Below are positions 20,736 to 39,216 of a stretch of 46,410 bases of DNA, in pieces. A program made the position numbers and the translations under genes. Within the stretch, counting starts at the first letter, position 1; every line of letters starts with the position of its first letter. The stretch lies in the NCBI GenBank assembly GCA_913046035.1, contig CAJWSW010000014.1, positions 1 to 46,410 of the forward strand, in the 5' to 3' direction. Below the pieces are notes generated by a model. It was not told the DNA's origin. It saw nothing but the letters and a program-made list of their open reading frames with translations, and did no database searches. The stretch comes from an uncultured Alphaproteobacteria bacterium (lineage in GTDB: Bacteria; Pseudomonadota; Alphaproteobacteria; MPNO01; UBA830).

Positions 20736-21857
20736 ATGGCCAGTGCAAAAGGATTAAAGGGAGTAGGATATTTCGATTGCGCCGGAGGCGGACAAATCCG
20801 GGTCGACGGAACGACTGCTTATATAGGCCACATGGCGAACCCATTTGGCACAAGCATCGTGGATATCGCTGACCCAAAGAACCCGAAGTTGCTTTCGCAC
20901 ACAGGTATGCCTGAAGGCACTCATTCCCACAAAGTCCACGCCCAAGGCGATATTATGGTTCGAAACCATGAATTGATTGGGCCCGGTAAGCCCGACGAAT
21001 TCTCCACCGGGGTAGGTATCTATAATGTTTCTGACAAAAGTAATCCTCGGCTGATTTCGACATGGGACACGATCGGGCGTGGCGTACACCGCTTCGATTT
21101 TGATGGGCGTTATATGTACTTTTCTTCCACAATGGAGGGTTACCGCGGCCCCATTATGGTTGTTCTCGACCTTCAAGACCCGCAAAAACCGGTCGAAGTC
21201 TGCAAATGGTGGATCCCTGGTCAGTGGGAAGCAGGTGGCGAAGAGTATCCATGGGGCGACGGGCCGGAACCGCGTTGTCATCACCCACTCCGAATGGGAG
21301 ATCGATTATATATGAGCTACTGGCATCACGGCGCCTTCATCCTAGATATCGCAGATTTGCACAATCCAAAAATGGTCTCCAGCTTCAATACCGGTCCCAC
21401 CTTCCCTCATCCCACCCACACAGTACTGCCTATACCATTCGAAATAGCAGGGCACCGTCACATGATTGTAGCCGATGAGGACGTCGCCAAGCTCAGGCCT
21501 CATGCGCCGGCTTTTACTTGGATTTTTGATATTACAGACGAAACTAATCCAATTCCGATTGCATCGTGGCAAGTCGAAGGTCTGGATCTAGTTGGGGAAC
21601 CGCAGAGCGCCTTTACAGGGTGCCATCAACCCAGCGAAATAGTTACCGGTCCAATTATCCCGTTCGCCTGGTTTTCGAAAGGTATAAGAATGCTAGACAT
21701 CTCGAACCCACATATTCCGAAGGAAGTCGCGCACTTTGAACCTGACCCCCAGCCGGGCTGCGACCGGGTCTGCGCTAACGACATCACTGTAGACGATCGG
21801 GGACTAATCTACTTCATCGATCGACTTCGGGGTCTACACATTGTTGAACAGATCTAA
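20736..21857 (+). CDS. LVIVD-repeat beta-propeller protein
   Basis: A 373-residue protein with at least six repeats of the form (I/V/M)xD(I/V)xDxxxPxxxxx: residues 41-55, 95-109, 143-157, 202-216, 263-277 and 319-333. This is the LVIVD pattern of beta-propellers. No signal peptide is seen, so unlike many LVIVD proteins it should be cytoplasmic. Conserved histidines cluster in GTHSHKVH, CHHPLRM, WHHGA, HPTHT and GCHQPSE, suggesting a metal or ligand site at the propeller centre, somewhat like selenium-binding proteins. The function is unknown. A typical ribosome site (AAAGGGGGAAA) precedes the ATG. Confidence 0.8.
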   Translation: MASAKGLKGVGYFDCAGGGQIRVDGTTAYIGHMANPFGTSIVDIADPKNPKLLSHTGMPEGTHSHKVHAQGDIMVRNHELIGPGKPDEFSTGVGIYNVSDKSNPRLISTWDTIGRGVHRFDFDGRYMYFSSTMEGYRGPIMVVLDLQDPQKPVEVCKWWIPGQWEAGGEEYPWGDGPEPRCHHPLRMGDRLYMSYWHHGAFILDIADLHNPKMVSSFNTGPTFPHPTHTVLPIPFEIAGHRHMIVADEDVAKLRPHAPAFTWIFDITDETNPIPIASWQVEGLDLVGEPQSAFTGCHQPSEIVTGPIIPFAWFSKGIRMLDISNPHIPKEVAHFEPDPQPGCDRVCANDITVDDRGLIYFIDRLRGLHIVEQI

Positions 21858-21990: not shown

Positions 21991-23058
21991 TTAGCTCCGT
22001 ATCGGTGAATGGAGTATACCCATTCTGCGCGCACCGCCAATTACCAGAACCGCATATACAGTTTGTAAAATCAAAAATGGCAGAAACACCAGAACCTGCT
22101 GTTGGGGCTCGCATCTGATAAGAAATAAAGTGCCGACACCTTGGGAGATTGTCATGAAAAAATGCAAAATGCTTACTCGGACATGGCTCCAGCCGATTTG
22201 ATTTAGTAACTGGTAAAGATGCCCCCGATGCGCCTGCGTGATATTTTCACCGTTAAAGAGACGACGACATAACGTGAACATTGTATCGAATATAAAATTA
22301 AAAAATAAGAGGGGGACCACAAGAAGAGATGTACGGGATGTGTCGATCTCGGCCGCAATTATCGCAATCGCGGCAAATGAGAAACCGAGAAACTGGCTTC
22401 CCACATCACCCATAAAAAGCCTCGGTCGGGGAAAGTTGTAAACTAGGAACCCCGCTGAGCTAGCGACCAAGATGTAACAGAGGATATAAACAAAAAATGA
22501 TCCCTCAAGATATGTCACCGCGCACAAAAACGCTGCGACAGCGACCGCAACACCCCCAGCAAGGCCGTTTAGACCATCCATAAAGTTAAATATATTGGTC
22601 ATAGCGACGAGCCAGATAACCGTCAGCGGATAACCCACCCAGCCAAGCTGAATTTGACCCACGAATGGAAGCGGAACTTGGCTGAAAACAATCCCCGATG
22701 CCAATAGGACCATCGCCGCCGCAATTTGGCCTAACAGCTTAATCTGAAATGTCTTAAGCTTCTTCAAATCGTCAAACAATCCGATCACGCTAATTACGCA
22801 GGCAGCTACTGCGAAGCCGATCAGGTTTTGTTTTGAAAGCCTCACTTCATCACCTACGAACCAAACAACTGTAAACCCGCAAGCGCATGTCGCAAATATC
22901 GCCATACCCCCGGTTGAGGGTGTAGGCCGATCATGGCTTGAACGTTGGTTAGGTTCGTCAAGAATTTTCAGTTTCAGAACCACAAACGTGGCGACAACAG
23001 AAAATGCGAATAACATAATCGCAAAAAGAATGTGAGTGCCTAGAACCGTCGTTGTCAT
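21991..23058 (-). CDS. WecA/MraY-family polyprenyl-phosphate sugar-1-phosphate transferase
   Basis: A 355-residue polytopic membrane enzyme with ten or so hydrophobic segments. The catalytic loops are present: DDLKKLK (96-102), NIFNFMDGLNGLAGG (155-169), FMGDVGS (215-221) and HRGH (277-280). The MDG and HRGH forms resemble WecA/WbpL-type initiators rather than MraY. It would transfer a HexNAc-1-phosphate from a UDP-sugar to undecaprenyl phosphate on the cytoplasmic face, starting a surface polysaccharide. No glycosyltransferase or O-antigen genes adjoin it, so it stands alone here. It is divergent from the extradiol dioxygenase gene. Confidence 0.87.
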   Translation of the reverse strand: MTTTVLGTHILFAIMLFAFSVVATFVVLKLKILDEPNQRSSHDRPTPSTGGMAIFATCACGFTVVWFVGDEVRLSKQNLIGFAVAACVISVIGLFDDLKKLKTFQIKLLGQIAAAMVLLASGIVFSQVPLPFVGQIQLGWVGYPLTVIWLVAMTNIFNFMDGLNGLAGGVAVAVAAFLCAVTYLEGSFFVYILCYILVASSAGFLVYNFPRPRLFMGDVGSQFLGFSFAAIAIIAAEIDTSRTSLLVVPLLFFNFIFDTMFTLCRRLFNGENITQAHRGHLYQLLNQIGWSHVRVSILHFFMTISQGVGTLFLIRCEPQQQVLVFLPFLILQTVYAVLVIGGARRMGILHSPIRS

Positions 23059-23260
23059 GTCGAGTCATCATAGTCGATGAACAACCCGAATCGCGAAAAA
23101 CGACGTCTGAAAACCCGAAAGTTTACCGATATAGTGCTTCGCATGAGCACCAATTGGGAAACCTCATCAAAAAGCCGATTTATCAAGCTTTATGGACTTG
23201 CGCGTCTCCTCAACACCGATATCATTGAAGTTTAAGAGGCGCCCTGTTAGGAGCATAACG

Positions 23261-24118
23261 ATGATAGAATTAGTGGATCTCAGATACGTGCATTTAGGTT
23301 CATCGAATGCGAAAGATGCATCGAAATGGGCGCAGGATATTTATGGCCTCGAGGAAGTATCTAGAGAAAACGGACGTATCTATCTTAGAGGCGACGACCG
23401 CGATCATAATATCTGTTACTTCGATGGTGACCCAAAAGACAACACGGTGGGCATTGAAGTCGCTGACTATAATGCGTTGGATCAAGCAGCAAATCTCCTC
23501 GAGGCAAACGGCGTCGAGTTCAAATGGGGTGACGTCGAGGGGGCTACAACGCGGCGGTGCATGAAATATCTTACATTTTACGATCCGACTGGTAACAAAT
23601 TTGATTTACTTGTGAGACCTTTTACCTCGGGTCGTCGTTACTTCCCGAGCCGCGATGCTGGAGTGCATTGGTTTAACCATATAGGCTTAAAAACCAAAGA
23701 CGCACCGAGGGATGAAAAATTCTGGTGCACACTATTTAACCTAAAGTCTAACGACTGGATCGGCGACGCAGCCCTAATGTCGTTCGACAAAGTGCACCAC
23801 CGTATCGCCCTATTCCCGACCAATGAGACCGGGGTACAACACATAAATTTTCAGGTTCGGGAGACCGACGACTTAATGCGTTCCTCCTATTTTCTGAAGG
23901 AAAGGCAGATCAGGATTGTGTTTGGCCCGGGTCGCCATGCTACGTCAGGTGCGAGATTTCTCTATTTCGAAGGACCCGACGGAATGGTCTACGAATATTC
24001 ATGCGGAGTAAAAATTATCGAACCCGAGGACCAGTGGCGCCCAAGACAGTTTCCCTTTACGCCCGAGTCCTTCTGCGTTTGGGGATCAAAACCTGACATT
24101 CCTGAGTTCCGAGACTAA
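23261..24118 (+). CDS. Type I extradiol ring-cleavage dioxygenase (BphC-like)
   Basis: A 285-residue two-domain VOC protein with the full type I extradiol layout. The iron ligands in the C-terminal domain are visible as H140 (HWFNHIGLK), H194 (GVQHINFQV) and E245 (GMVYEYSCG). The second-sphere His (H180 in VHHRIALF) is also in place. Such enzymes open catechol-like rings next to the hydroxyls. The frame begins at 23192, but ATG 23261 follows TAGGAG and starts the family pattern. The class II aldolase-like gene begins 5 bases after its stop, so the two are co-transcribed. Confidence 0.85.
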   Translation: MIELVDLRYVHLGSSNAKDASKWAQDIYGLEEVSRENGRIYLRGDDRDHNICYFDGDPKDNTVGIEVADYNALDQAANLLEANGVEFKWGDVEGATTRRCMKYLTFYDPTGNKFDLLVRPFTSGRRYFPSRDAGVHWFNHIGLKTKDAPRDEKFWCTLFNLKSNDWIGDAALMSFDKVHHRIALFPTNETGVQHINFQVRETDDLMRSSYFLKERQIRIVFGPGRHATSGARFLYFEGPDGMVYEYSCGVKIIEPEDQWRPRQFPFTPESFCVWGSKPDIPEFRD

Positions 24119-24123
24119 GCGGC

Positions 24124-24837
24124 ATGGAAAACACAGAATTCGGGTACCTAGGCGAAGACATCAGTGCTACCGAAGTCCGGGTCCGAATGGCCGCGAGGGC
24201 GCTAGGCTGCAACAATTTGGGGCACGCTTATGGACATGTGAGCGCTCGTTTGGATAGTGATACCTTTCTCGTTTGCGCACCGAAGCCTATGGGATTGATT
24301 ACAGCAGAGGACGAGGGGACCGTCGTGCCTATAGAGGGCCCGCTTCCCGATGGCGTTCTCGGTGAGGTTCGATGCCATCAACAGATTTACAAACGAAGGA
24401 ATGACGTCAATGGCATTGCGCGCACCTTCCTAAGAAACGTCATGACGCTTTCGACGTTTCAAAGAACCCCACGGCCACGCATTGGGTTTGCGAGTTATTT
24501 TGCGCCGGCGCCCCCGCTTTGGGACGACCCTTTGCTTTTGAGAGATGATGAGTCGACAAAAAAACTGGCTCATACCCTCGGCGACGCTCGAGCAATCGTT
24601 ATGCGCGGCAACGGCTGTATACTGACTGGTGCTACCGTCGAGGAGGCTATCGTAATGGCATTTTATCTAGAGGAAGCCGCAACAACCGAACTCGCCGTAA
24701 TGGCCTCAGGCCAAGAAGATCGTTCGCTGGTGTATTCCGACGAACAGGCCAAGTCACGCGCGGTATCATCGGGACAGATTTTCGAACGGATGTGGGATTT
24801 CCTTACACATGGAGATCCGGAAGGAAACAAGCGTTAA
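24124..24837 (+). CDS. Class II aldolase/adducin-like protein without zinc ligands
   Basis: A 237-residue protein with the class II aldolase fold signs: GHVSARL (37-43), the acidic position E81 in GEVRCHQQIYKRRNDV, and a C-terminal VEEAIVMAFYLEEAA helix (172-186). The metal site is gone: the usual His-Thr-His reads Arg-Thr-Phe (100-102) and the usual RGHG reads RGNG (161-164). It therefore probably does not use zinc, and may act on a different bond or bind a ligand without metal. Gene order ties it to the extradiol dioxygenase immediately upstream. The changes look like a subfamily trait, since the rest of the fold is well preserved. Confidence 0.8.
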   Translation: MENTEFGYLGEDISATEVRVRMAARALGCNNLGHAYGHVSARLDSDTFLVCAPKPMGLITAEDEGTVVPIEGPLPDGVLGEVRCHQQIYKRRNDVNGIARTFLRNVMTLSTFQRTPRPRIGFASYFAPAPPLWDDPLLLRDDESTKKLAHTLGDARAIVMRGNGCILTGATVEEAIVMAFYLEEAATTELAVMASGQEDRSLVYSDEQAKSRAVSSGQIFERMWDFLTHGDPEGNKR

Positions 24838-24976: not shown

Positions 24977-25912
24977 TCAAGCTAGTGTGTTGGTAAGTAC
25001 ACCAACGCCCTCTAGTTCAATCTCAATTGTATCGCCCGCGTGCATAAAAATGTGCGGGTCCCGGCCAATACCCACACCTGAGGGAGAGCCTGTCGTGACA
25101 ATGTCGCCAGGATGAAAGCGGTACCACTGCGAATAGTAAGCAATGATCTCTGGCAGTTTGAAGATCAGATCATCTGTTTTGGTATCTTGCATCACCTCAT
25201 CGTTGAGCCGGGTCTGCAGATGCAAATTATGAGGGTCTGCGACTTCATCCTTAGTCGTTAAAAACGGGCCGCAGGGGGTAAACCCAGGTAGATTTTTACC
25301 GAGAATATTTCGCTCCCAACCGTGTATGGGACCAAATGGCGGTTCTCCATTTTTAATATCAGGGATCCAATCTCTCGCCGAAACGTCATTCGCAATCGTG
25401 TAGCCCGCGACGTATTCCATTGCCTCTTCTTCCGACACTGCATGACACTCTCTACCAATGACGAAGCAAAGTTCACCCTCGTAATCGATTTGGTTCGGGC
25501 ATTGTGGCGGTATAGGAATGGCTTTACCGGAACCTAGAAGGGAATCTCGGGTCTTAATAAAGCCAGCAGGATTCTCTGGTGCCGGCGTATTGCTCATTTC
25601 TGAGAGATGCCGCCCGTAATTCATCCCAACCGAGAATATCAGCCACGGGTTGGGGATCGGTGCCAAATATTCTATTTCACTGAGATCAAATAACGAACTG
25701 GCACATTCTTCAAGATTGCTCTCCACAGCGCCAATTATCCGCCGTACAGCATCAAGTCCCGCCGAGTCTCGTTCTAGTATTTCTCGCACCGATGACGGAC
25801 GCCACTTTCCTTCCAAAACACTCTCCGGTGCTGTGGAAAGGTTAAGTACCTGACCATCACCTACTACGACACCCGGCTGTCCATTTTCCGCGTCAATTGT
25901 GAGCAGTTTCAT
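24977..25912 (-). CDS. Fumarylacetoacetate-hydrolase family protein
   Basis: A 311-residue FAH-fold hydrolase. The metal ligands appear as E145 and E147 (DYEGELCFVIG) and D176 (ANDVSARD). GMNYGRHLSEM (96-106) is the family's catalytic-lid entry, and the end TGSPSGVGIGRDP (about 275-287) is diagnostic. Members hydrolyse or hydrate ring-cleavage products such as 2-hydroxymuconates, acylpyruvates and fumarylacetoacetate. It closes a minus-strand run of three genes (PhyH, cupin, FAH) and lies near a ring-cleaving dioxygenase, which fits aromatic catabolism. ATG follows GGAG. Confidence 0.88.
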   Translation of the reverse strand: MKLLTIDAENGQPGVVVGDGQVLNLSTAPESVLEGKWRPSSVREILERDSAGLDAVRRIIGAVESNLEECASSLFDLSEIEYLAPIPNPWLIFSVGMNYGRHLSEMSNTPAPENPAGFIKTRDSLLGSGKAIPIPPQCPNQIDYEGELCFVIGRECHAVSEEEAMEYVAGYTIANDVSARDWIPDIKNGEPPFGPIHGWERNILGKNLPGFTPCGPFLTTKDEVADPHNLHLQTRLNDEVMQDTKTDDLIFKLPEIIAYYSQWYRFHPGDIVTTGSPSGVGIGRDPHIFMHAGDTIEIELEGVGVLTNTLA

Positions 25913-29440: not shown

Positions 29441-31840
29441 TTATTTGGATTTTTCGTAAAGCGCAGTCTCAATGTCGCGGGCCCGGATCGGAAGCTCGTT
29501 GATTTCAATATCGAGAGGGCGGAGCGCATCATTTACCGCTGATGCCACTGCGGCTGGAGCTCCAAGATATCCTCCTTCACCCGATCCCTTTTGTCCGAGC
29601 GAGGTCAATGGCGAAGGGGTGCAGTGTTCTACATCAGTCACCGTTGGAATTTCATGAGAAGATGGTAAAAGATAGTCGACGAAGGTTCCCGCCAAAAGCT
29701 GGCCGTCTGGATCATATTCAAATTTCTCGTATAACGCCGCGCCAATACCGTGCGCAACGCCGCCAATGATCATGCCTCGCACGATATCGGGATTTATCGC
29801 GGTACCGCAATCATGTGCGATGTAGTAATCATGTAGTTTTACCTTACCGGTATCACGATCAATTTCGACAAGCGGAACGTGTGCCTGAAAGGAGAAACAC
29901 GGGTATAGCGGGACCTCATTTTTTTCATTTGGCAACTGCCCCGCGCCGGGCACTTGTTGCACCGAATAAGCCTGCAGACCAAGTTCTTGACCCGGCGGCA
30001 TTCGATGGAATTGCTTGTGTGCGATGTGGCAGACCTCTTCCCAAGACAACTTTTTTTCTGGCTCGCCGCGCATGCTAAACTCGCCGTCGGCGTATTCGAT
30101 TTGCTCCTTCTCTACCCCGATATCGTAAGCTGCGATAGTTATCATCTTATCTTTGATTTCCCGCGCCGCGTTGGAGGTCGCAGTTCCCAACACTATAGTC
30201 ATTCTGCTCGCTACCGGGCTCCGCGTTGGAAGCGCCTCAAGTGAGTCACCATGTACAACACGTATCGTATCTGGGTCGCGCTCAAGCTCCTCGCCAGCGA
30301 TAGTAGAAACCATTGTTTCGTGCCCTTGTCCCGAAGTGGTAGTGCACATGACTGCGGTGATCGCGCCACTGGGTTCAACCTTTATCAGAACAGATTCTAC
30401 AAACGTCGTGATTTCTAGCTTGGGATTGAATAGATATTCGAAGATATTATTGCCACCGCCAGGTTCGAGACAGGTTGCAATGCCGACACCTGCTAGCTTT
30501 CCTTCCGCACGCAATGCATCACGCCGGCTAATTAGTTCCTGCCAGTCGGATGTCTTAATGGCACTATCGAGTACAGCATGAAAATCCCCGGAGTCGTAAA
30601 GAGATCCTGGAGGTATTTTCCAGGGGAATTCATCCTTACGAACGAGATTTCGGGCGCGCACCTCGACCCTATCGAGTCCCAAAAATTTAGCCACTCTCTC
30701 CAGTCCGGTCTCGACCGCAAAATTGGTTGGTGCCTGTCCAAACCCTCGCACTGGCACCTGTCCAGTCTTGTTTGAGGTTACCGAAATCGCTTCATATTCG
30801 ATTGAGTTTACGCGATAGGGACCGCACAACGCCGTCATAGGTTTCCCGAGTTGAAGAGGTGCGCGGCCGGGATAGGCTCCAACATCATCCAATGCACGCA
30901 TTTTCATCGACTTTATGACACCGTCGTCGTCAAACGCCATAGTAACATCAAAGATCCGGTCGGGCCCGTGAGCATCACCACCCGACATATTATCCAATCG
31001 ATCCTCAATAAAGCGAACTGGCACGCCGAGACGCTTTGCGAGATAACACACAAGCACCGTGTGCTTGATCCCACGTTTTACACCATAGGAACCACCGACA
31101 TCGACATCGTTATGAACACGAACATTATTCATAGGCATGCGCAAAACCGCAGCGATTTGATCTTGGTATTGCGGCATCTGGATTGAGGCCCAAACATCCA
31201 TAACTTCTGTGGTCTCGTCCCACTTAGCGACCACACCAAACGTTTCGATAGGTACAGTCGATGAGCGACCCCAGCGCGCCCTGTAGCTAATTGTGTGCGG
31301 CATACTGGCGAAGTCATCCGCTACAGGACCCCATTCCCAGGTTTTTCGAAATAGAATGTTGCTACCGTGTTCCGGATGGACCAATGGCTGATCTTCATCA
31401 ATCATCTTTTCCGTGTCTACAGCAGCCGGCAGAGACTCGTATTCGACTTCAATCAATTCGGCAGCATCTTCTGCTATATATCTTGTATCAGCGACGACAG
31501 CGGCGACCCACTCACCTGCATAACGGGTCATACCGACAGCAAGCGGATGCCACTTAACATTGGGAAGGTCTAAACCATGAAAAAGTGAGCTTGTCTCCCT
31601 AGCCAATTCATCACCAGTCAAAACATAATGCACGCCTGACATTGACATTGCGGCACTGGTATCAATTTTGAGGATGTTGGCACGGGGGTGTGGGCTAGGA
31701 AGCACAGCCACGTGTTTCATCCCAGGGACCTCGACATCGGCAACAAACTTGCCGCGCCCAGTAATAAAGCGCCGATCTTCCTTCGTACGCCGCTTCCGTG
31801 AAACGTAACGGTAATTTGAAAGCGTGGTGGTCTGGCCCAT
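29441..31840 (-). CDS. Molybdenum hydroxylase large subunit (CoxL/XdhB-like)
   Basis: A 799-residue molybdopterin-cytosine-dinucleotide-type large subunit. It begins with RKEDRRFITGRGKFVADV-like sequence and contains DVDVGGSYGVKRG and the late GQKGSGEGGYLGAP, whose Glu is the base that activates the Mo-bound water. The active-site loop reads VPVRGFGQAP (about 375-384). This is neither the AYxCSFR of form I CO dehydrogenase nor the AYRGAGR of typical form II, so CO is unlikely to be the substrate. More likely it hydroxylates a (hetero)aromatic or aldehyde carbon. It overlaps the 2Fe-2S gene by one base (TAATG) and is followed by the enoyl-CoA hydratase. Confidence 0.9.
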   Translation of the reverse strand: MGQTTTLSNYRYVSRKRRTKEDRRFITGRGKFVADVEVPGMKHVAVLPSPHPRANILKIDTSAAMSMSGVHYVLTGDELARETSSLFHGLDLPNVKWHPLAVGMTRYAGEWVAAVVADTRYIAEDAAELIEVEYESLPAAVDTEKMIDEDQPLVHPEHGSNILFRKTWEWGPVADDFASMPHTISYRARWGRSSTVPIETFGVVAKWDETTEVMDVWASIQMPQYQDQIAAVLRMPMNNVRVHNDVDVGGSYGVKRGIKHTVLVCYLAKRLGVPVRFIEDRLDNMSGGDAHGPDRIFDVTMAFDDDGVIKSMKMRALDDVGAYPGRAPLQLGKPMTALCGPYRVNSIEYEAISVTSNKTGQVPVRGFGQAPTNFAVETGLERVAKFLGLDRVEVRARNLVRKDEFPWKIPPGSLYDSGDFHAVLDSAIKTSDWQELISRRDALRAEGKLAGVGIATCLEPGGGNNIFEYLFNPKLEITTFVESVLIKVEPSGAITAVMCTTTSGQGHETMVSTIAGEELERDPDTIRVVHGDSLEALPTRSPVASRMTIVLGTATSNAAREIKDKMITIAAYDIGVEKEQIEYADGEFSMRGEPEKKLSWEEVCHIAHKQFHRMPPGQELGLQAYSVQQVPGAGQLPNEKNEVPLYPCFSFQAHVPLVEIDRDTGKVKLHDYYIAHDCGTAINPDIVRGMIIGGVAHGIGAALYEKFEYDPDGQLLAGTFVDYLLPSSHEIPTVTDVEHCTPSPLTSLGQKGSGEGGYLGAPAAVASAVNDALRPLDIEINELPIRARDIETALYEKSK

Positions 31841-32322
31841 TATAGACCCTCCTGCCGGCGTTCAGCCGCCATCTTTACCGCTTCGACAATCTGCTGATAG
31901 CCTGTACAACGGCATAAATTACCGCTGATTGCCTCTCGTATATCGTGATCGTCCGGACTCGGGTTTTCCATCAATAGAGCATGACTTGAAATAAGCATCC
32001 CAGGTGTACAATAGCCACACTGCATCGCATGGCATTCCCAAAAGGAATCTTGCAGATCGCTAATCTCACCGTCTTCGCCAACCAGCCCTTCGACAGTCGT
32101 TATTTCATGACCCTCAGCCTGAACAGCAAACATCAAACAAGACCGAACGGGCTCCCCGTCAAACATTACTGAACAAGCGCCGCAAACACCGTGCTCGCAA
32201 CCCACATGGGTCCCAGTAAGCCGCAAAATATCCCGCAGACAATCAACTAGCGTCATCCGAGGCGCAACATTCACAGTGTGAACACGTTTGTTTACCGTCA
32301 GAGTAACCTCAATCTCTTTCAT
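31840..32322 (-). CDS. Molybdenum hydroxylase 2Fe-2S subunit (CoxS-like)
   Basis: A 160-residue iron-sulfur subunit carrying both clusters. The plant-ferredoxin type site is CEHGVCGAC with a later Cys in VRSCLMF, and the second is CGYCTPGM with CRCTGYQ. It passes electrons from the molybdenum site to the FAD subunit. The open frame runs to 32349, but ATG 32322 follows GGAGG and gives the family start KEIEVTLTVN. It overlaps the medium-subunit gene by 14 bases and the large-subunit gene by 1, a tight M-S-L operon. Confidence 0.93.
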   Translation of the reverse strand: MKEIEVTLTVNKRVHTVNVAPRMTLVDCLRDILRLTGTHVGCEHGVCGACSVMFDGEPVRSCLMFAVQAEGHEITTVEGLVGEDGEISDLQDSFWECHAMQCGYCTPGMLISSHALLMENPSPDDHDIREAISGNLCRCTGYQQIVEAVKMAAERRQEGL

Positions 32323-33187
32323 TTTTTGCCTCCGAAACCGCGTCCTCAATAGCCCTCGTAATTAACCGCCTCGCAACACGTGAACGATAGCCGGCGGTCG
32401 CGTGCACATCTGTGTCGGGATCAATTTCTTCATCCAAACCATCAAGAGCTGAACTTAATTCAGCCGGTTTGGATCCCTTCAAAGCAAGTTCAACACCGCG
32501 CAGTTTTAGAGGGCATGGCGCGACACCGCCCGCACTAACCGCCGCTTTAACGATTGTCCCGTCGGCGGCGAGCTCTATCTGCGCCATCGCCGATACGATA
32601 GCGTAATCACTTTCTCGGCTAGCAGTTTCGTAAAAACCTGTCCCTATGGAAGCTCCCTCCCACACAGGTATTCGAACCTCCGTCAAAATCTGATCGGGTT
32701 CGATGTTCGTTACCATCGCTGCTTCAAAGAAGCCATCCAACGGGACCTCTTTCTCCTCAGAAACACTGCGCAGCAACACCGATGCTTCTAGCGCCAGTGC
32801 CGCCATTGAAATTTCGGCTGTCGGATCTCCATGCACTATGCTACCACCGATCGTGCCCCGATTTCGCGTCTGGATGTGACCAACCTTTCGGATAGCTTTA
32901 GCCAACAAAGGTAGGCGTTTAGATATAATTTCGGATCTCTCCAATGCGCGCTGACGCGTACATCCGCCAATGACCAAGTGGTCGCCCTTGTCCTCAATCT
33001 CCGAGAGACCGTTGACGTCATTTATATCTATGAGCATATCCGGCCGAGACATTCGCATGGCCATCAGAGGTACAAGCGTTTGTCCTCCTGCAATGATTTT
33101 ACGTTCCATCTCACCTGCGTCGGCCAAAAGGCGACAGACCTCGTCAACACTTGCGGGGCGTACATAATCAAACGTTGCGGCTTTCAT
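32309..33187 (-). CDS. Molybdenum hydroxylase FAD subunit (CoxM-like)
   Basis: A 292-residue FAD-binding medium subunit. Its two FAD motifs are AGGQTLVPLMAMR (about 34-46) and TIGGSIVHGDPTAE (about 111-124), as in CoxM. It begins with the usual FDYVRPASVDEV. It would receive electrons from the CoxS-like subunit and hand them to an acceptor. The following gene overlaps its end. Only one copy is present for two large-subunit genes, so it may serve both. Confidence 0.93.
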   Translation of the reverse strand: MKAATFDYVRPASVDEVCRLLADAGEMERKIIAGGQTLVPLMAMRMSRPDMLIDINDVNGLSEIEDKGDHLVIGGCTRQRALERSEIISKRLPLLAKAIRKVGHIQTRNRGTIGGSIVHGDPTAEISMAALALEASVLLRSVSEEKEVPLDGFFEAAMVTNIEPDQILTEVRIPVWEGASIGTGFYETASRESDYAIVSAMAQIELAADGTIVKAAVSAGGVAPCPLKLRGVELALKGSKPAELSSALDGLDEEIDPDTDVHATAGYRSRVARRLITRAIEDAVSEAKNERD

Positions 33188-33291
33188 AAAAAATATATTC
33201 CTATGTTTTCGATATTCGGAGCATAACAGTCAATCACCGTCCAACTAGATGTTTAAAGATATGATTAAACAGAAAAGGATGGTAGCCCAAG

Positions 33292-33306
33292 GCGCCAAAT
33301 TGGCGC
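33292..33306 (-). terminator. Hairpin downstream of the second large-subunit gene
   Basis: GCGCCAA (33292-33298) and TTGGCGC (33300-33306) are perfectly complementary around one base. It lies 6 bases past the stop of the second large-subunit gene. No T-run follows in either direction, so it may be a weak terminator or a processing stem in a longer transcript. Confidence 0.3.
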
Positions 33307-33312
33307 ATACAG

Positions 33313-35637
33313 CTAAGAGCCAGCCTTTATCAATTCCCAGACCTTTCTCGGCGTAACCGGCATTTGTATATCACGCACACCAAACGGTCTGAGCGCATCT
33401 ACAAAACCATTAACCAGTACGGCTAACGCAGGCGTCGTGCCACCCTCACCGCCCGCCTTCACGCCCAACGGGTTCGTTGGTGATGGCACTTCATTTAGCT
33501 CAGTTTTAAATGAGGGATATTCGTCTGCCCGTGGCATGTGATAATCCATAAATGAGCCGGCTAGCGGCTGTCCTGACTCCGGATCCATCGCGCAGAGTTC
33601 CCCAAGGGCTTCCCCCGCCCCCTGAACGATGCCCCCATGAGTTTGACCATCGACAATGAGTGGGTTGATTGCACGTCCAACATCGTCAACTGTCGTGTAG
33701 CGAGCAATTTTATACGCGCCTGATACAGGGTCGATTTCGATCTCGCATATGTGACAGCCATTGGGAAAAACTGGCGTCTCCATGACATTATCTTCAATTA
33801 CCGACAATTTCTCAGGCAAATCTGAGCGGCGTCCAACTACTTCCGCCAATGCGTAAAGGGAAATCTCTCGGTCGGTACCGACGACTTGAAACTTACCGTC
33901 GTGAAATTCAAGATCAGTTTCCGCGGCCTCAAGCACCACGGCTGCAAGTTTCTTACTCTTCTCGATAAGTTCGTCGGCCGCCTTCACGATCACGGTACCA
34001 GCCATACGCATTGAACGCCCGCTGTGAGACCCACCGCCAACCTTCACAAGATCTGTATCCCCGACGATCACTGAAATCGTATTAACAGGTACTCCTAACC
34101 ACTCGGCAGCAACCTGAGCGAAGCTGGTTTCATGGCCCTGTCCACTCGGTTGCGTGCCAATAACAAGGTCTATATGACCGTCAGCCCGCACGTGGATTTC
34201 CGCTTGTTCGCGCGGTGTACCGATCGAGGACTCCACATAATTTGCAAATCCCCGACCTAATAACATTCCTCGGCTTTCAGCTTCTTTTTTACGCGTCTCG
34301 AAACCGCGCCAGTCAGCCAGGTCCATACACATATCCATGCTTTTAGCGTATTCGCCGCTGTCATAAGTCATACCCACAGCATTTGGATAAGGCATCTGTT
34401 CGGATGATACGAGGTTCTTGCGCCTCAATTCGATGGGGTCGTAACCAAGTTCCGCCGCTGCAGTCTCTACCAGTCGCTCAATTGCGAACGTCACCTCAGG
34501 TCGCCCGGAACTCCGATATGCGTTGGTTGGAGCAGTATTGCTGAAAACCGCACGGGACCGAAGATACGCAACCGGGATATCGTACGAGCCCGTGATAAGT
34601 CCAGATCCCTTACTCAAAGGCGAAAGCGAAACCATACGCGATCCGACGTTTGATAGGTTATCTGCGCGCATAGCGAGAAACTGTCCCGCGTCATCAAGAG
34701 CAAGCGAAACCCGCGTTACAAGATCACGACCCTGATAATCACTTAAAAATGACTCGCCCCGGTCACAGGTCCATTTGACTGGGCGCCCAATCTTGCGAGA
34801 GGCCCATCCGACCAGAGGGAATTCCACATAAAGACGGTTACGAGTTCCAAAGTTGCCTCCAACGTCTTTGGAGACCACACGGACTGTGTCGCCCTCAACT
34901 CCGAGCACCTCAGCAATTTCGCGCTTTTGTCGCACCGAGCCTCCCGACCCTGCATATATAGTGTACCGACCCGTGTCTAAATTGTAGTCACCGAGTGCCG
35001 CCCTCGGCTCCATCGGGACACCAGTAACTCGATCGATAACGATGTCCATTTCGACAACATCCTGCGCTGCCGCGAAAGCAGCATCGGTGCGCTCTTTATC
35101 ACCAAAGAACGTCTCGACACATATGTTATCCGGCACTTCGTCCCAAATTGTCGGCGCACCGTTTTCCGCTGCCTTTGCCGTATCAGTTACAGCCGGTAGC
35201 GGATCATAATTGACCGACACTACCTCTGCCGCATCTTCCGCTTGAGCGAGTGTTTCCGCAACGACGATCGCAATTGCCTCACCGACGTAACGCACTTTAT
35301 CTGTTGGCAACAGTGTGTGATCACCTATGAAAACTTCGGATCCATTTGGCCCCTCAAGTTTCATATCGTGTTTCGTTGACGGTAATGGGCTGTGGGGAAT
35401 TGGCGCTAAATTGTCCAAACGAGCGTCATCACCCGTCAAAATCGTCAACACCCCTGGCATTGAGCGCGCAACCTCAACGTCAATGCCCAAGATAAACGCG
35501 TGGGCATAAGTAGACCGCACCACTGCCATGTATGTCTGACCGTCGACTGACCAGTCGTCGCTGAAGCGACCTTGTCCTTTTAGGAGCCTCGCATCTTCCC
35601 GACGGCGAACCGGTTGACCAATTTTCTGATATTTCAT
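33313..35637 (-). CDS. Second molybdenum hydroxylase large subunit (CoxL-like)
   Basis: A 774-residue large subunit starting YQKIGQPVRRREDARLLKGQGRFSDD, the standard CoxL-family entry. The loop NAYRSSGRPE (about 372-381) is of the form II type rather than the CO dehydrogenase form I, and GVKAGGEGGTTPA near the end holds the catalytic Glu. It is clearly diverged from the large subunit at 29441. No partner 2Fe-2S or FAD gene lies upstream, so it may share the M and S subunits encoded downstream. It is separated from them by 125 bases with one hairpin. Confidence 0.9.
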   Translation of the reverse strand: MKYQKIGQPVRRREDARLLKGQGRFSDDWSVDGQTYMAVVRSTYAHAFILGIDVEVARSMPGVLTILTGDDARLDNLAPIPHSPLPSTKHDMKLEGPNGSEVFIGDHTLLPTDKVRYVGEAIAIVVAETLAQAEDAAEVVSVNYDPLPAVTDTAKAAENGAPTIWDEVPDNICVETFFGDKERTDAAFAAAQDVVEMDIVIDRVTGVPMEPRAALGDYNLDTGRYTIYAGSGGSVRQKREIAEVLGVEGDTVRVVSKDVGGNFGTRNRLYVEFPLVGWASRKIGRPVKWTCDRGESFLSDYQGRDLVTRVSLALDDAGQFLAMRADNLSNVGSRMVSLSPLSKGSGLITGSYDIPVAYLRSRAVFSNTAPTNAYRSSGRPEVTFAIERLVETAAAELGYDPIELRRKNLVSSEQMPYPNAVGMTYDSGEYAKSMDMCMDLADWRGFETRKKEAESRGMLLGRGFANYVESSIGTPREQAEIHVRADGHIDLVIGTQPSGQGHETSFAQVAAEWLGVPVNTISVIVGDTDLVKVGGGSHSGRSMRMAGTVIVKAADELIEKSKKLAAVVLEAAETDLEFHDGKFQVVGTDREISLYALAEVVGRRSDLPEKLSVIEDNVMETPVFPNGCHICEIEIDPVSGAYKIARYTTVDDVGRAINPLIVDGQTHGGIVQGAGEALGELCAMDPESGQPLAGSFMDYHMPRADEYPSFKTELNEVPSPTNPLGVKAGGEGGTTPALAVLVNGFVDALRPFGVRDIQMPVTPRKVWELIKAGS

Positions 35638-35732
35638 TTCGTACGAGCGTTATCCATCTTGGAATTTGTTTATATACTTATCCCCATACGCCACCGTATG
35701 GTGTTGGTCAAGGTTTTGGCCGGGAGGAAACG

Positions 35733-36236
35733 TCAATTTGCAAACCGACGCTGCAGGTGAGGCACCAACCCGCCGTCCACCATCATCGCTAAGAGATGTT
35801 TAGGCATTGGTTCGCATGAATATTGCACTCCAGTTTCTTGTATACAAACGCTACCAGCCGTCGCGTCGATTGATATGTGTTGTCCCGCGGTAATTTGCTT
35901 TGCATTGGGGCATATTAGTGTCATGAGCCCATGATTTATCGCATTACGATAAAATATCCCACCAAACGAAGGAGCCAGCACAGCGGCTACGCCGTGATAA
36001 ACCAGTGATTGCGCCGCCTGTTCACGAGATGAGCCTATCCCAAAACTCTTACCTGCGCAGATCACATCGCCCTTATTAACATTTTTTACAAAATCGGGTT
36101 CGACAGTTTCAAGACAATGAGAAGCAATGACCTCGGTTGAGCTCTTCATATACAGTCCGGGTGCCAAGACATCGGTATCGATATAGTCACCAAAGGCCCA
36201 AACTTTAGCGCCTTTTATAAGCCCATGGGTGTTCAT
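35733..36236 (-). CDS. Aconitase-family small subunit (LeuD-like hydro-lyase)
   Basis: A 167-residue swivelling domain. It has GDYIDTDVLAPG (about 16-27) and the substrate-binding KSFGIGSSREQAAQ (about 63-76), where SSR is diagnostic. The short size and loop sequence match the archaeal-type small subunit that pairs with the 420-residue large subunit. Together these proteins hydrate or dehydrate 3-isopropylmalate, homocitrate, maleate (D-malate forming) or 2,3-dimethylmalate. Catabolic neighbours make a degradative role more likely than leucine synthesis. Its start overlaps the large-subunit stop by 4 bases. Confidence 0.88.
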   Translation of the reverse strand: MNTHGLIKGAKVWAFGDYIDTDVLAPGLYMKSSTEVIASHCLETVEPDFVKNVNKGDVICAGKSFGIGSSREQAAQSLVYHGVAAVLAPSFGGIFYRNAINHGLMTLICPNAKQITAGQHISIDATAGSVCIQETGVQYSCEPMPKHLLAMMVDGGLVPHLQRRFAN

Positions 36237-37498
36237 CGGAGGAACTCCCGGGGGTCTTTGATCTCGCCCGCTACCGCTGCGGCTGCAACTGTATATGGAT
36301 TGCCAAGATAAACCTGTGAGTTTGTCGCCCCCATACGCCCCTTAAAGTTTCGCGCGGTCGACGCAATACACACCTCGTGTTCAGCCAATACCCCCGCCCC
36401 GTACCCAGCGCACGCTCCACAGCCGGAAGGCATCATAATCGCTCCAGCTGCTGTCAGCGTCGCTAAAGTGCCATCTGCCGCTGCCACCGCCGTGTCTTTC
36501 TGAGAAGCTGGTGCAATCAAAAGTCTCGCGCCCTTTGCCACGTCACGCCCCTCGAGTATTTCGGCCGCCATTCGCAGATCGATTAGCTTTGCGCCTGTGC
36601 ATGCTCCAATGTATGCCTGATCGATTTTGACACCCTCGACTTCTGCTACTGGCGCCGAATTGGCGGGGCTATGAGGAGCCGCGACTTGCGGTCCAAGGGC
36701 CGCAATATCGATTTGATGCGTTGACCGCACCAATGCCTGCGGGTCGGTCAGCCATCGTCCGAAATCGCTGGGCTCAGCTCCTGCGTTTCGAATAAATTCA
36801 GCGGTTGTTTTATCTCCCGCTATAATCCCAGTCTGAGCACCTAGCTCCGCCGCCATGTTGCAGAGTGTCATTCTTTCTGACATTGGGAGGGTGGAAATGG
36901 TATCTCCTGTGTATTCAATAACCTGGTAGTCCGCTCCATCCATTCCTAGTCTTGCGCAAAGCGCAAGCATGACATCCTTCGCACTCACGCCTTTAGGCAT
37001 TCCACCCGTAACCTCGACCCGGACAGTCTCCGGCACTCGCACCCAAGTCTCCCCTGTCGCAAGCACGCCGGCCATATCCGTCGCGCCAATGCCAAACATA
37101 AAGCAGCCGAATGCGCCGCCAGTTGGCGAATGGCTATCCCCACCAACGACAAACATGCCTGGTTTTAGATGGCCGCGTTCGGCCAGCACCACATGGCATA
37201 TACCCTGCATATCGTAAAAGTGTGGCAAGCCCTGCTCCGTGGCGAATTTTCTAGTTACATCTAAGATCTGGGCACTCTCAGCATCTACAGCAGGTACATA
37301 ATGATCTGAAATCAAAACGACCTTGTCAGGGTCCCAGACCCCCACACCCAGTTTTTCAAGGATAGGCCTTACCCGGCGCGGACCCCCAGAGTCGTGGATC
37401 ATTGCGAGGTCAACGGAGCATGTCACGATTTCTCCAGGCACAACTTTATCCAGACCCGCCGCATGAGCGATGATTTTCTGTGCCGACGTCTCAGCCAA
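36233..37498 (-). CDS. Aconitase-family large subunit (LeuC-like hydro-lyase)
   Basis: A 421-residue 4Fe-4S hydro-lyase subunit of the LeuC type. The cluster cysteines are C300 (IGACTGAK), C360 and C363 (SGCGACAGYG). The substrate-binding stretch DSHSPTGGAFG (121-131) is intact. I place the start at the TTG at 37498: GGAGG lies at 37506-37510, and the codon begins 3 bases after the TAA of the flavoprotein gene. This makes the two genes translationally coupled. The longer frame to 37558 overlaps that gene without family resemblance. Possible activities are those given for the small subunit. Confidence 0.87.
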   Translation of the reverse strand: MAETSAQKIIAHAAGLDKVVPGEIVTCSVDLAMIHDSGGPRRVRPILEKLGVGVWDPDKVVLISDHYVPAVDAESAQILDVTRKFATEQGLPHFYDMQGICHVVLAERGHLKPGMFVVGGDSHSPTGGAFGCFMFGIGATDMAGVLATGETWVRVPETVRVEVTGGMPKGVSAKDVMLALCARLGMDGADYQVIEYTGDTISTLPMSERMTLCNMAAELGAQTGIIAGDKTTAEFIRNAGAEPSDFGRWLTDPQALVRSTHQIDIAALGPQVAAPHSPANSAPVAEVEGVKIDQAYIGACTGAKLIDLRMAAEILEGRDVAKGARLLIAPASQKDTAVAAADGTLATLTAAGAIMMPSGCGACAGYGAGVLAEHEVCIASTARNFKGRMGATNSQVYLGNPYTVAAAAVAGEIKDPREFLR

Positions 37499-37500
37499 AA

Positions 37501-39216
37501 TTATGCCTCCGCTTTCTGATCGCTTAAAAGACCTGCTGCGTGCATTGCGACGCGCCATCCGAAGACGACGGCTGGGCCAAGGGTCGTGCCGGGTCCGGGA
37601 TAGGATCCCGACATCAAAGACCCCATGTCGTTGCCAACGGCGTAAAGCCCAGTTATGGGCTGATGTTGAGCATCAAGCACACGACCAGAGGGGTCCGTTG
37701 ATAATCCCACACTGCAGGCGATTTCTGCCGGCCACACCGCTATAGCCACAAACGGACTTTTTTCGATTAACCCCAAACATGGATTAGGCGCATGCAATGG
37801 ATCCCCGTTAAAGCGGTTCAGCTCCATGTCTCCTTTGCCAAAGTCTTCATCAGTGCCCGTCCGCGCGAAATCATTATTACGGGCTACGGTGTCCAGCAGA
37901 CCGTTAGGATCGACGCCAATTTTTGATGCCAGCTCTTCGAGATTCTCAGCCAGCGTTACATAACTGTTAGCAATGTGTTTCGATAAATCCCTCGTTTCAG
38001 GATGTATAGCGCCCAATCCATATTTGGTCACAAAAGCCCGTTCGCAGACTAACCAAGCGGGGAGAGTTGAGGCGGTCTGATGGGACCTGTACATCGCTTC
38101 AACAAAATCGTGATACGAAACGGCTTCGTTTACGAAACGCCGACCCTCAGCGTTTACGGCAATGAGGCCGGGTTTTGCTCGGTCCATGGCAAGATGTGGA
38201 AAGAGACCCTTTGTACCATCGGCTCGAGTAGTCACTGAGACTGGCGACCATAAACCGCCGCCTTGTCCCGACGTATCAATCCCTGCGCCAGCAGCATCGG
38301 CTAATACAAATCCATCACCTGTATTGGAAACGGGTGCCATAGAGTGGGGAGGCGTAGGATGGGGCATAAAGGCTTTGCGGTATTCTGTATTATGCGCAAA
38401 CCCGCCTGTCGCTAATACAACACCCTTTCGAGCGCGCACACGCTTGTCTCCGTTGGTGGTCTCCAACACGGCCCCAACAACCACCCCGCCTTCACGAATG
38501 AAATCTTTTATAGGGCTCTGAAACATTACAGAAACATTGCGCTTTTTAAGACTGTAAAATAGCCTCGCTATAAGTGCATTTCCCATTACGAGACGTGTTC
38601 CCCTGCGAAAACGCAAACGATCTGAAAGGTAGCGCAACACTAACGAAGCCGATCGCCGAAAAGCCGCAAAAGATTTATAGCGACCGAGTAAATTCACGAT
38701 ATCTGTCTTCCCAACCATCATGCCTCCCATTAGCATAAATTCGGGAATTGGAGGCCGAACGCGTTCAAAATCTTTACCAAGAAGCCGTCCGTCAAAAACA
38801 TCAGGAATTATCGCGCGGCCAGCAAGCCCGGCACCGCTAAGATTGTTCCGATAATCGGGATGCATCCCGCAAGGAAGAAACTTCACGTCGGTTTTATTTT
38901 CCAAATAATCAATAACGCGTGGTCCATCTTGCAAGTATATTCGCCTGTGTTCAGATGCTCGGTCATCGCCGATAAGCTGATCGAGGTAAGTAGCCGCGTC
39001 TTCGGGGGAATCCTCGAAGCCTGCCTTTCGGCTTTGCGAATTTCCGGGGATCCATAAGGTGCCCGCAGATGTTGCCCCCGTACCACCAACCTGCCTAGTT
39101 TTCTCACAGACAATCGCAGTTAACCCTTCGATCGATGCTACAAGCGCCACCGTCATACCTGCAGGGCCAGCTCCAGCAATCAGCAAATCAGTCTCGATAT
39201 CCCAAGTCGGCTCCAT
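37501..39216 (-). CDS. FAD-dependent oxidoreductase of the fumarate reductase / ketosteroid dehydrogenase family
   Basis: A 571-residue flavoprotein. The FAD motif GAGPAGMTVA is at 14-23, and GGTGATSAGTLWIPGN (44-59) follows the acidic ribose binder. The second FAD segment GVVLATGGFAHN (about 280-291) and the C-terminal GSYPGPGTTLGPAVVFGWRVA complete the family pattern. Relatives reduce or introduce C=C bonds next to carbonyl or carboxyl groups (fumarate, urocanate, 3-ketosteroids). No export signal or haem motif is visible, so it is cytoplasmic and needs an outside electron partner. It sits between a cupin and the coupled LeuC/LeuD-like genes. Confidence 0.88.
   Translation of the reverse strand: MEPTWDIETDLLIAGAGPAGMTVALVASIEGLTAIVCEKTRQVGGTGATSAGTLWIPGNSQSRKAGFEDSPEDAATYLDQLIGDDRASEHRRIYLQDGPRVIDYLENKTDVKFLPCGMHPDYRNNLSGAGLAGRAIIPDVFDGRLLGKDFERVRPPIPEFMLMGGMMVGKTDIVNLLGRYKSFAAFRRSASLVLRYLSDRLRFRRGTRLVMGNALIARLFYSLKKRNVSVMFQSPIKDFIREGGVVVGAVLETTNGDKRVRARKGVVLATGGFAHNTEYRKAFMPHPTPPHSMAPVSNTGDGFVLADAAGAGIDTSGQGGGLWSPVSVTTRADGTKGLFPHLAMDRAKPGLIAVNAEGRRFVNEAVSYHDFVEAMYRSHQTASTLPAWLVCERAFVTKYGLGAIHPETRDLSKHIANSYVTLAENLEELASKIGVDPNGLLDTVARNNDFARTGTDEDFGKGDMELNRFNGDPLHAPNPCLGLIEKSPFVAIAVWPAEIACSVGLSTDPSGRVLDAQHQPITGLYAVGNDMGSLMSGSYPGPGTTLGPAVVFGWRVAMHAAGLLSDQKAEA

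Follow-up and report, generated by a model that had tools for sequence, protein, structure and literature searches.

Introduction

What becomes of a class II aldolase fold once its metal site has gone? Class II aldolases bind their metal through the His residues of an HxH motif and a third His. The question is raised by one gene in a 46,410-nucleotide stretch of DNA from an uncultured alphaproteobacterium (the window), whose product, P0001, has the fold and carries other residues at all three positions. P0001 is the window's member of an aldolase-fold family with Arg at position 100 and Asn at position 163; genes of this family are called "cII" here. Judged from conservation and gene context, P0001 is fairly likely to be a class II aldolase-fold decarboxylase of a ring-cleavage product, working without the usual three-His divalent metal site. 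The gene and the codons concerned are:

24124 to 24837, + strand: class II aldolase/adducin-fold protein of 237 aa, R100/N163 subfamily (P0001, "cII"); from PF00596, the family alignment and the model
24364 to 24366, + strand: Glu codon 81, at the catalytic acid/base Glu position of class II aldolases; E81 in 81/81
24421 to 24429, + strand: R-T-F codons 100 to 102, at the metal H-x-H position; family against outgroup alignment
24604 to 24615, + strand: RGNG codons 161 to 164, with N163 at the third metal His position; family against outgroup alignment

Results and discussion

Fold and residues of P0001

The translated open reading frame contains E81, R100-T101-F102 and R161-G162-N163-G164, exactly as a preliminary description of this DNA had read the HxH motif and the third His. 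Its claim that E81 and the fold are retained also holds. P0001 matches the Pfam profile Aldolase_II (PF00596) with an E value of 3e-14 and 53.8 bits against a cut-off of 22.2, Glu-81 is present throughout the family and the AlphaFold model is confident, with a mean predicted local distance difference test score (pLDDT) of 94.4 and a predicted template modelling score (pTM) of 0.92. The model was computed from 75 family sequences, the plasmid-collection rows of the 81-row alignment being left out; an earlier prediction from 5 sequences (pLDDT 52.8) was unusable. The best solved match in Foldseek is 2z7b, 3-hydroxy-2-methylpyridine-4,5-dicarboxylate decarboxylase (template modelling (TM) score 0.81), followed by pyruvic oxime dioxygenase, NovR, TqaM and fuculose-phosphate aldolases; structures of the spectrin-actin junctional complex are also present among the fold matches. 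P0001 is a member of the class II aldolase/adducin superfamily. E81 stands where class II aldolases have their catalytic acid/base Glu, Glu73 in FucA.

None of the NCBIfam profiles reached its own cut-off with P0001. The best of them was PhtC (NF053537, 50.6 bits against a cut-off of 200), and P0001 also falls outside FucA (TIGR01086, 18.6 bits, cut-off 400) and the L-ribulose-5-phosphate epimerase model (32.7 bits, cut-off 251). In HMMER alignments, PDB chains of the fold and two paralogues from the same genome have His at all three metal positions (HAH, HTH, HNH or HFH; xHG).

A conserved family without the metal histidines

Sampled genomes, plasmids and 80 loci of GTDB genomes yielded homologues at 35–83% identity. 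The preliminary description had proposed a search for homologues with R-T-F/RGNG-like residues; R100 and N163 are invariant in all 81 sequences of the resulting alignment, while position 102 varies among neutral residues (M, F, Q, L, T or I) and is never His. His occurs at position 100, 102 or 163 in none of the 81, and the family thus lacks the metal-ligand pattern of FucA/AraD-type aldolases; no close homologue with an intact HxH/RGHG site was found among them. The outgroup class II aldolases have His at 100 and 163 in 30 of 30 sequences and keep the full HxH. The pocket residues E81, H85, R100, Y125, R140 and N163 are the same in every family member, and R21, R83, Y125, R140 and R212 are further conserved residues.

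The family is sharply delimited. In the class-wide sample its intact members score at least 236.9 bits and the next class II aldolase only 72; one genome has a broken copy, at 198. In the tree, a single branch with support of 100/100 separates all sampled R/N sequences from the rest. Most simply read, the metal-ligand positions underwent one change, in the ancestor of the family. Close relatives of P0001 are under purifying selection, with nonsynonymous and synonymous differences of pN 0.12–0.20 and pS 0.77–0.81; these are given in place of a dN/dS ratio because dS is saturated. On the alignment and the tree, the loss of the three metal histidines is a family-wide trait, not chance or one decayed copy. 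Of the metal-free subfamily first proposed, a conserved, one-clade subfamily without the three-His site therefore stands; its metal-free chemistry we infer from sequence alone. In the literature searched, from which most subscription papers were absent, no statement was found that the family lacks the metal site.

One family gene (G667:C1:3762173-3762867) is broken into two pieces with an internal stop and adjoins an intact dioxygenase. No family relatives were found in IMG/VR or phage records, the IMG/VR query alignment including two distant paralogues.

The dioxygenase partner

Directly upstream of cII lies a second gene:

23192 to 24118, + strand: type I (VOC) extradiol dioxygenase (P0002); TIGR03211 at 81 bits (below cut-off), Glyoxalase PF00903

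Its start is probably Met24 of the called open reading frame (position 23261), giving 285 aa. The dioxygenase stop ends at 24118 and the ATG of cII is at 24124, in agreement with the 5-base spacing first described. The enzyme is complete, as had also been claimed; the iron ligands H163, H217 and E268 are present together with H203 and Y258, and the set H/H/H/Y/E at 163/203/217/258/268 is the same in 95 of 95 distinct close homologues.

The pairing is widespread. Among 385 genomes sampled without bias from the class, ten carry cII, and in each of the ten the dioxygenase directly adjoins it (on the opposite strand in G520); a sample of the phylum added four further genomes with the same adjacency. 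In the genome collections, a VOC dioxygenase accompanies cII in 73 of 84 loci. At L070, L092 and L095 an extradiol dioxygenase of the unrelated LigB type lies near or adjoins cII. These partners disfavour a role as structural partner of the VOC dioxygenase only; cII therefore seems to follow the ring-cleavage product and not one particular dioxygenase. At L092 (8260-9657, Streptomyces sp. NBC_01454) the annotated gene, possibly a fusion, starts with a TetR-like DNA-binding region before the R/N aldolase-fold domain; the LigB-type dioxygenase adjoins it.

The pathway step

In many operons the gene order is dioxygenase, cII, 2-hydroxymuconic semialdehyde (HMS) dehydrogenase, DmpE-type hydratase, DmpH-type decarboxylase, 4-oxalocrotonate tautomerase (4-OT) and acetaldehyde dehydrogenase, most ending in DmpG; L029, L030, L054, L059, L068, L071, L079, L084 and L090 are among them. 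In these canonical operons cII is placed between the ring-cleavage gene and the HMS dehydrogenase gene. Every other gene of the operon has an established step, which leaves for cII the removal of a carboxylate ahead of HMS dehydrogenase; this operon logic suggests that the cII step is the conversion of the carboxylated ring-cleavage product to HMS. The adjoining dioxygenase would open a carboxylated catechol of the 2,3-dihydroxybenzoate type, P0001 would remove the carboxylate from the resulting carboxy-hydroxymuconic semialdehyde (CHMS) to give HMS, and HMS would enter the ordinary lower meta pathway.

Some clusters appear to fill this step differently. L101, L102 and the clusters of G636 (L137, L144) and G547 (L138, L143) contain the dioxygenase and pathway genes with an ACMSD-family protein, and cII is absent. 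The protein of L102 scores 188 bits to human ACMSD, and those of L101, G636 and G547 are 49–65% identical to it. L094 and L096 have a similar Rieske-VOC-SDR-hydrolase set with cII instead of the ACMSD-type gene; at L050, cII occurs together with a weak amidohydrolase match (26%). OpaD, an ACMSD-type amidohydrolase, performs the CHMS decarboxylation in strain PTH10 (PMC6362003). It looks as if two unrelated decarboxylases serve one pathway slot. Decarboxylases of the ACMSD family (OpaD, NbaD and PraH) likely carry out the same reaction step as cII, and members of the family occur in related clusters without it, but their fold is that of the unrelated amidohydrolases with a zinc site (PMC6362003), which makes this a non-homologous replacement. 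PraH was rejected as a precedent for cII, since both it and OpaD are ACMSD-type. A connection with the flavonoid (fde/ifc) pathway was likewise abandoned: none turned up, and FdeD is a Rieske protein.

The preliminary description had cII perhaps acting on or binding the ring-cleavage product. Operon logic speaks for action on it, and pure binding is disfavoured by the ACMSD-type replacement and the LigB-type partners.

Related systems

The closest known systems are DhbB and CmtD of the p-cumate pathway. DhbB, a "class II aldolase" of Pseudomonas reinekei MT1, decarboxylates 3-carboxy-2-hydroxymuconate semialdehyde according to PMC6362003, whose Table 1 names DhbA as dioxygenase, DhbD as hydratase, DhbF as tautomerase and DhbH as aldolase. 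With DhbB the comparison is one of operon order: in many cII homologues this matches the lettering of the dhb genes, to the extent that names and accessions printed in PMC6362003 reveal it. P0001 shares the DhbB-type context in that its aldolase-fold gene accompanies that of a type I extradiol dioxygenase, and the meta-cleavage operon is seen in its homologues; the window pair differs in standing apart from the lower pathway genes. By analogy, the activity of P0001 is probably that reported for DhbB, CHMS decarboxylation. The role is then most likely not a new one, as had been proposed, but that of DhbB as given in PMC6362003. Novelty would probably lie in the mechanism: a decarboxylase that has the fold of metal enzymes but apparently lacks their metal site, for a reaction probably already known through DhbB.

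Two further decarboxylases share the fold. Mlr6791 (2z7b), the best structural match, acts on an ortho-hydroxy acid but retains the metal histidines (LHTH, RHG) and is only 23% identical to P0001. PhtC, a 3,4-dihydroxyphthalate decarboxylase, is likewise a class II aldolase-fold decarboxylase of aromatic catabolism, from whose family P0001 is excluded by its score.

Proposed mechanism

CHMS in its keto form is a beta-keto acid. In the metal-using relatives the cation polarises the carbonyl; in P0001 the invariant guanidinium of R100 occupies its position. R100 and N163, with the other conserved residues (R21, R83, Y125, R140 and R212), may bind the 2-oxo/carboxylate group and take over the metal's part in stabilising the enolate; the proton could be handled by E81, as acid/base, or by a neighbouring residue. 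These roles of R100, N163 and E81 we infer from the alignment. For the family as a whole we lean, by a small measure, towards a metal-independent decarboxylase on a metal-dependent class II aldolase fold, in which the invariant Arg replaces the cation as electron sink, and which arose once, spread in Pseudomonadota and to Streptomyces and takes the role that the zinc enzyme ACMSD/OpaD has elsewhere.

Alternative explanations

The head domain of adducin has the class II aldolase fold and is not an enzyme. P0001 could similarly be a non-catalytic partner, binding or protecting the ring-cleavage product or lending stability to the dioxygenase, a reading that fits the loss of all three metal ligands and the very tight genetic linkage to the dioxygenase, and for which adducin would be the precedent. 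We consider it improbable. The pocket of the P0001 family, charged and invariant, argues against an adducin-like role, and the family's genes are bacterial and bound to operons, whereas adducin belongs to the eukaryotic cytoskeleton. Moreover, cII adjoins two unrelated dioxygenase families, is replaced elsewhere by an ACMSD decarboxylase, and occurs in operons that otherwise have no enzyme for carboxylate removal. Just as unlikely is a metal-dependent enzyme with replacement ligands, such as E81, H85 and H38, at a shifted site. All three residues are invariant in the family, and a few relatives of the fold (NovR, pyruvic oxime dioxygenase) bind iron for other chemistry; however, H38 is kept in 28 of 30 and H85 in 30 of 30 sequences of the HxH outgroup, and being equally conserved there they are not newly gained ligands, and a fixed Arg in place of the first ligand makes a cation there unlikely.

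A different step on the ring-cleavage product, for example enol-keto tautomerisation, is a shade less probable still. A metal-free acid/base reaction would suit the metal-less pocket and cII adjoins HMS dehydrogenase, but a 4-OT gene already lies beside cII in 19 genome loci, genes for the dehydrogenase, hydratase, DmpH decarboxylase and aldolase are present too, and the ACMSD-type replacement points to decarboxylation. Finally, were P0001 an ordinary class II aldolase in one decayed copy, the loss of all three ligands would be expected; the same replacements in 81 homologues, their single clade and a pN far below pS refute this reading, and we give it next to no probability.

Several observations weigh against decarboxylation of the ring-cleavage product by P0001. 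About 11 of the 84 cII loci have no VOC dioxygenase in the DNA examined, one of these having LigB. In clusters L103, L131-L134 and L136 the dioxygenase has no cII and no ACMSD gene close by. The window pair is itself not linked to the lower pathway, and the substrate of P0001 is a presumed one.

Neighbouring genes and the genome of the window

A lower pathway is found elsewhere in the genome. Contig C10 carries HMS dehydrogenase (59%), hydratase, acetaldehyde dehydrogenase, DmpG (67%), a DmpH-type decarboxylase, a Rieske oxygenase and a PdxA-type dehydrogenase; neither an extradiol dioxygenase nor cII occurs in the stretch of C10 that was read. Both missing steps could come from the window pair. 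Other parts of the genome contain two weak or partial VOC matches, so that a further dioxygenase is conceivable. Downstream of the pair in the window is:

24977 to 25912, - strand: fumarylacetoacetate-hydrolase (FAH) family protein, a possible associated gene; PF01557, E 2e-65

In L016-L021 and L023 an FAH homologue comes after the cII-dioxygenase pair, in the same orientation. The genes at 20736-21857 (LVIVD-repeat protein) and 21991-23058 (MraY/WecA-like glycosyltransferase) stand in the same order beside the pair in the near relatives L011-L013 and L018; they have no obvious link to ring cleavage. A further catabolic cluster is likely at window positions 29441-39216, where an FAD-binding-2 oxidoreductase and a split aconitase-family protein lie next to two large subunits of molybdopterin hydroxylases and the accompanying 2Fe-2S and FAD subunits.

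Many loci also have a second VOC paralogue, about 32–40% identical to the active dioxygenase and mostly directly upstream of it (L007, L008, L022, L025, L028, L033, L038, L042, L045, L047, L049, L051, L053, L055, L058, L062, L073, L075, L081, L102, L115-L120 and others). Its iron ligands are lost (e.g. A/S/G at 163, A/S/G/E at 217 and S/G at 268) and His203 is kept; it looks like the pseudo-enzyme subunit of a two-component type I extradiol dioxygenase.

Conclusions

Enzymes of the class II aldolase fold are defined by their three-His metal site. If our reading is right, a whole catalytic family has dismantled that site and fixed Arg and Asn instead, a clean replacement of a cation by a guanidinium and a test case for beta-keto acid decarboxylation without a metal. 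Two unrelated decarboxylases, cII and the ACMSD type, would fill what looks like the same pathway slot, and a likely step would be assigned to a gene that in many aromatic degraders bears no annotation beyond "class II aldolase/adducin family protein".
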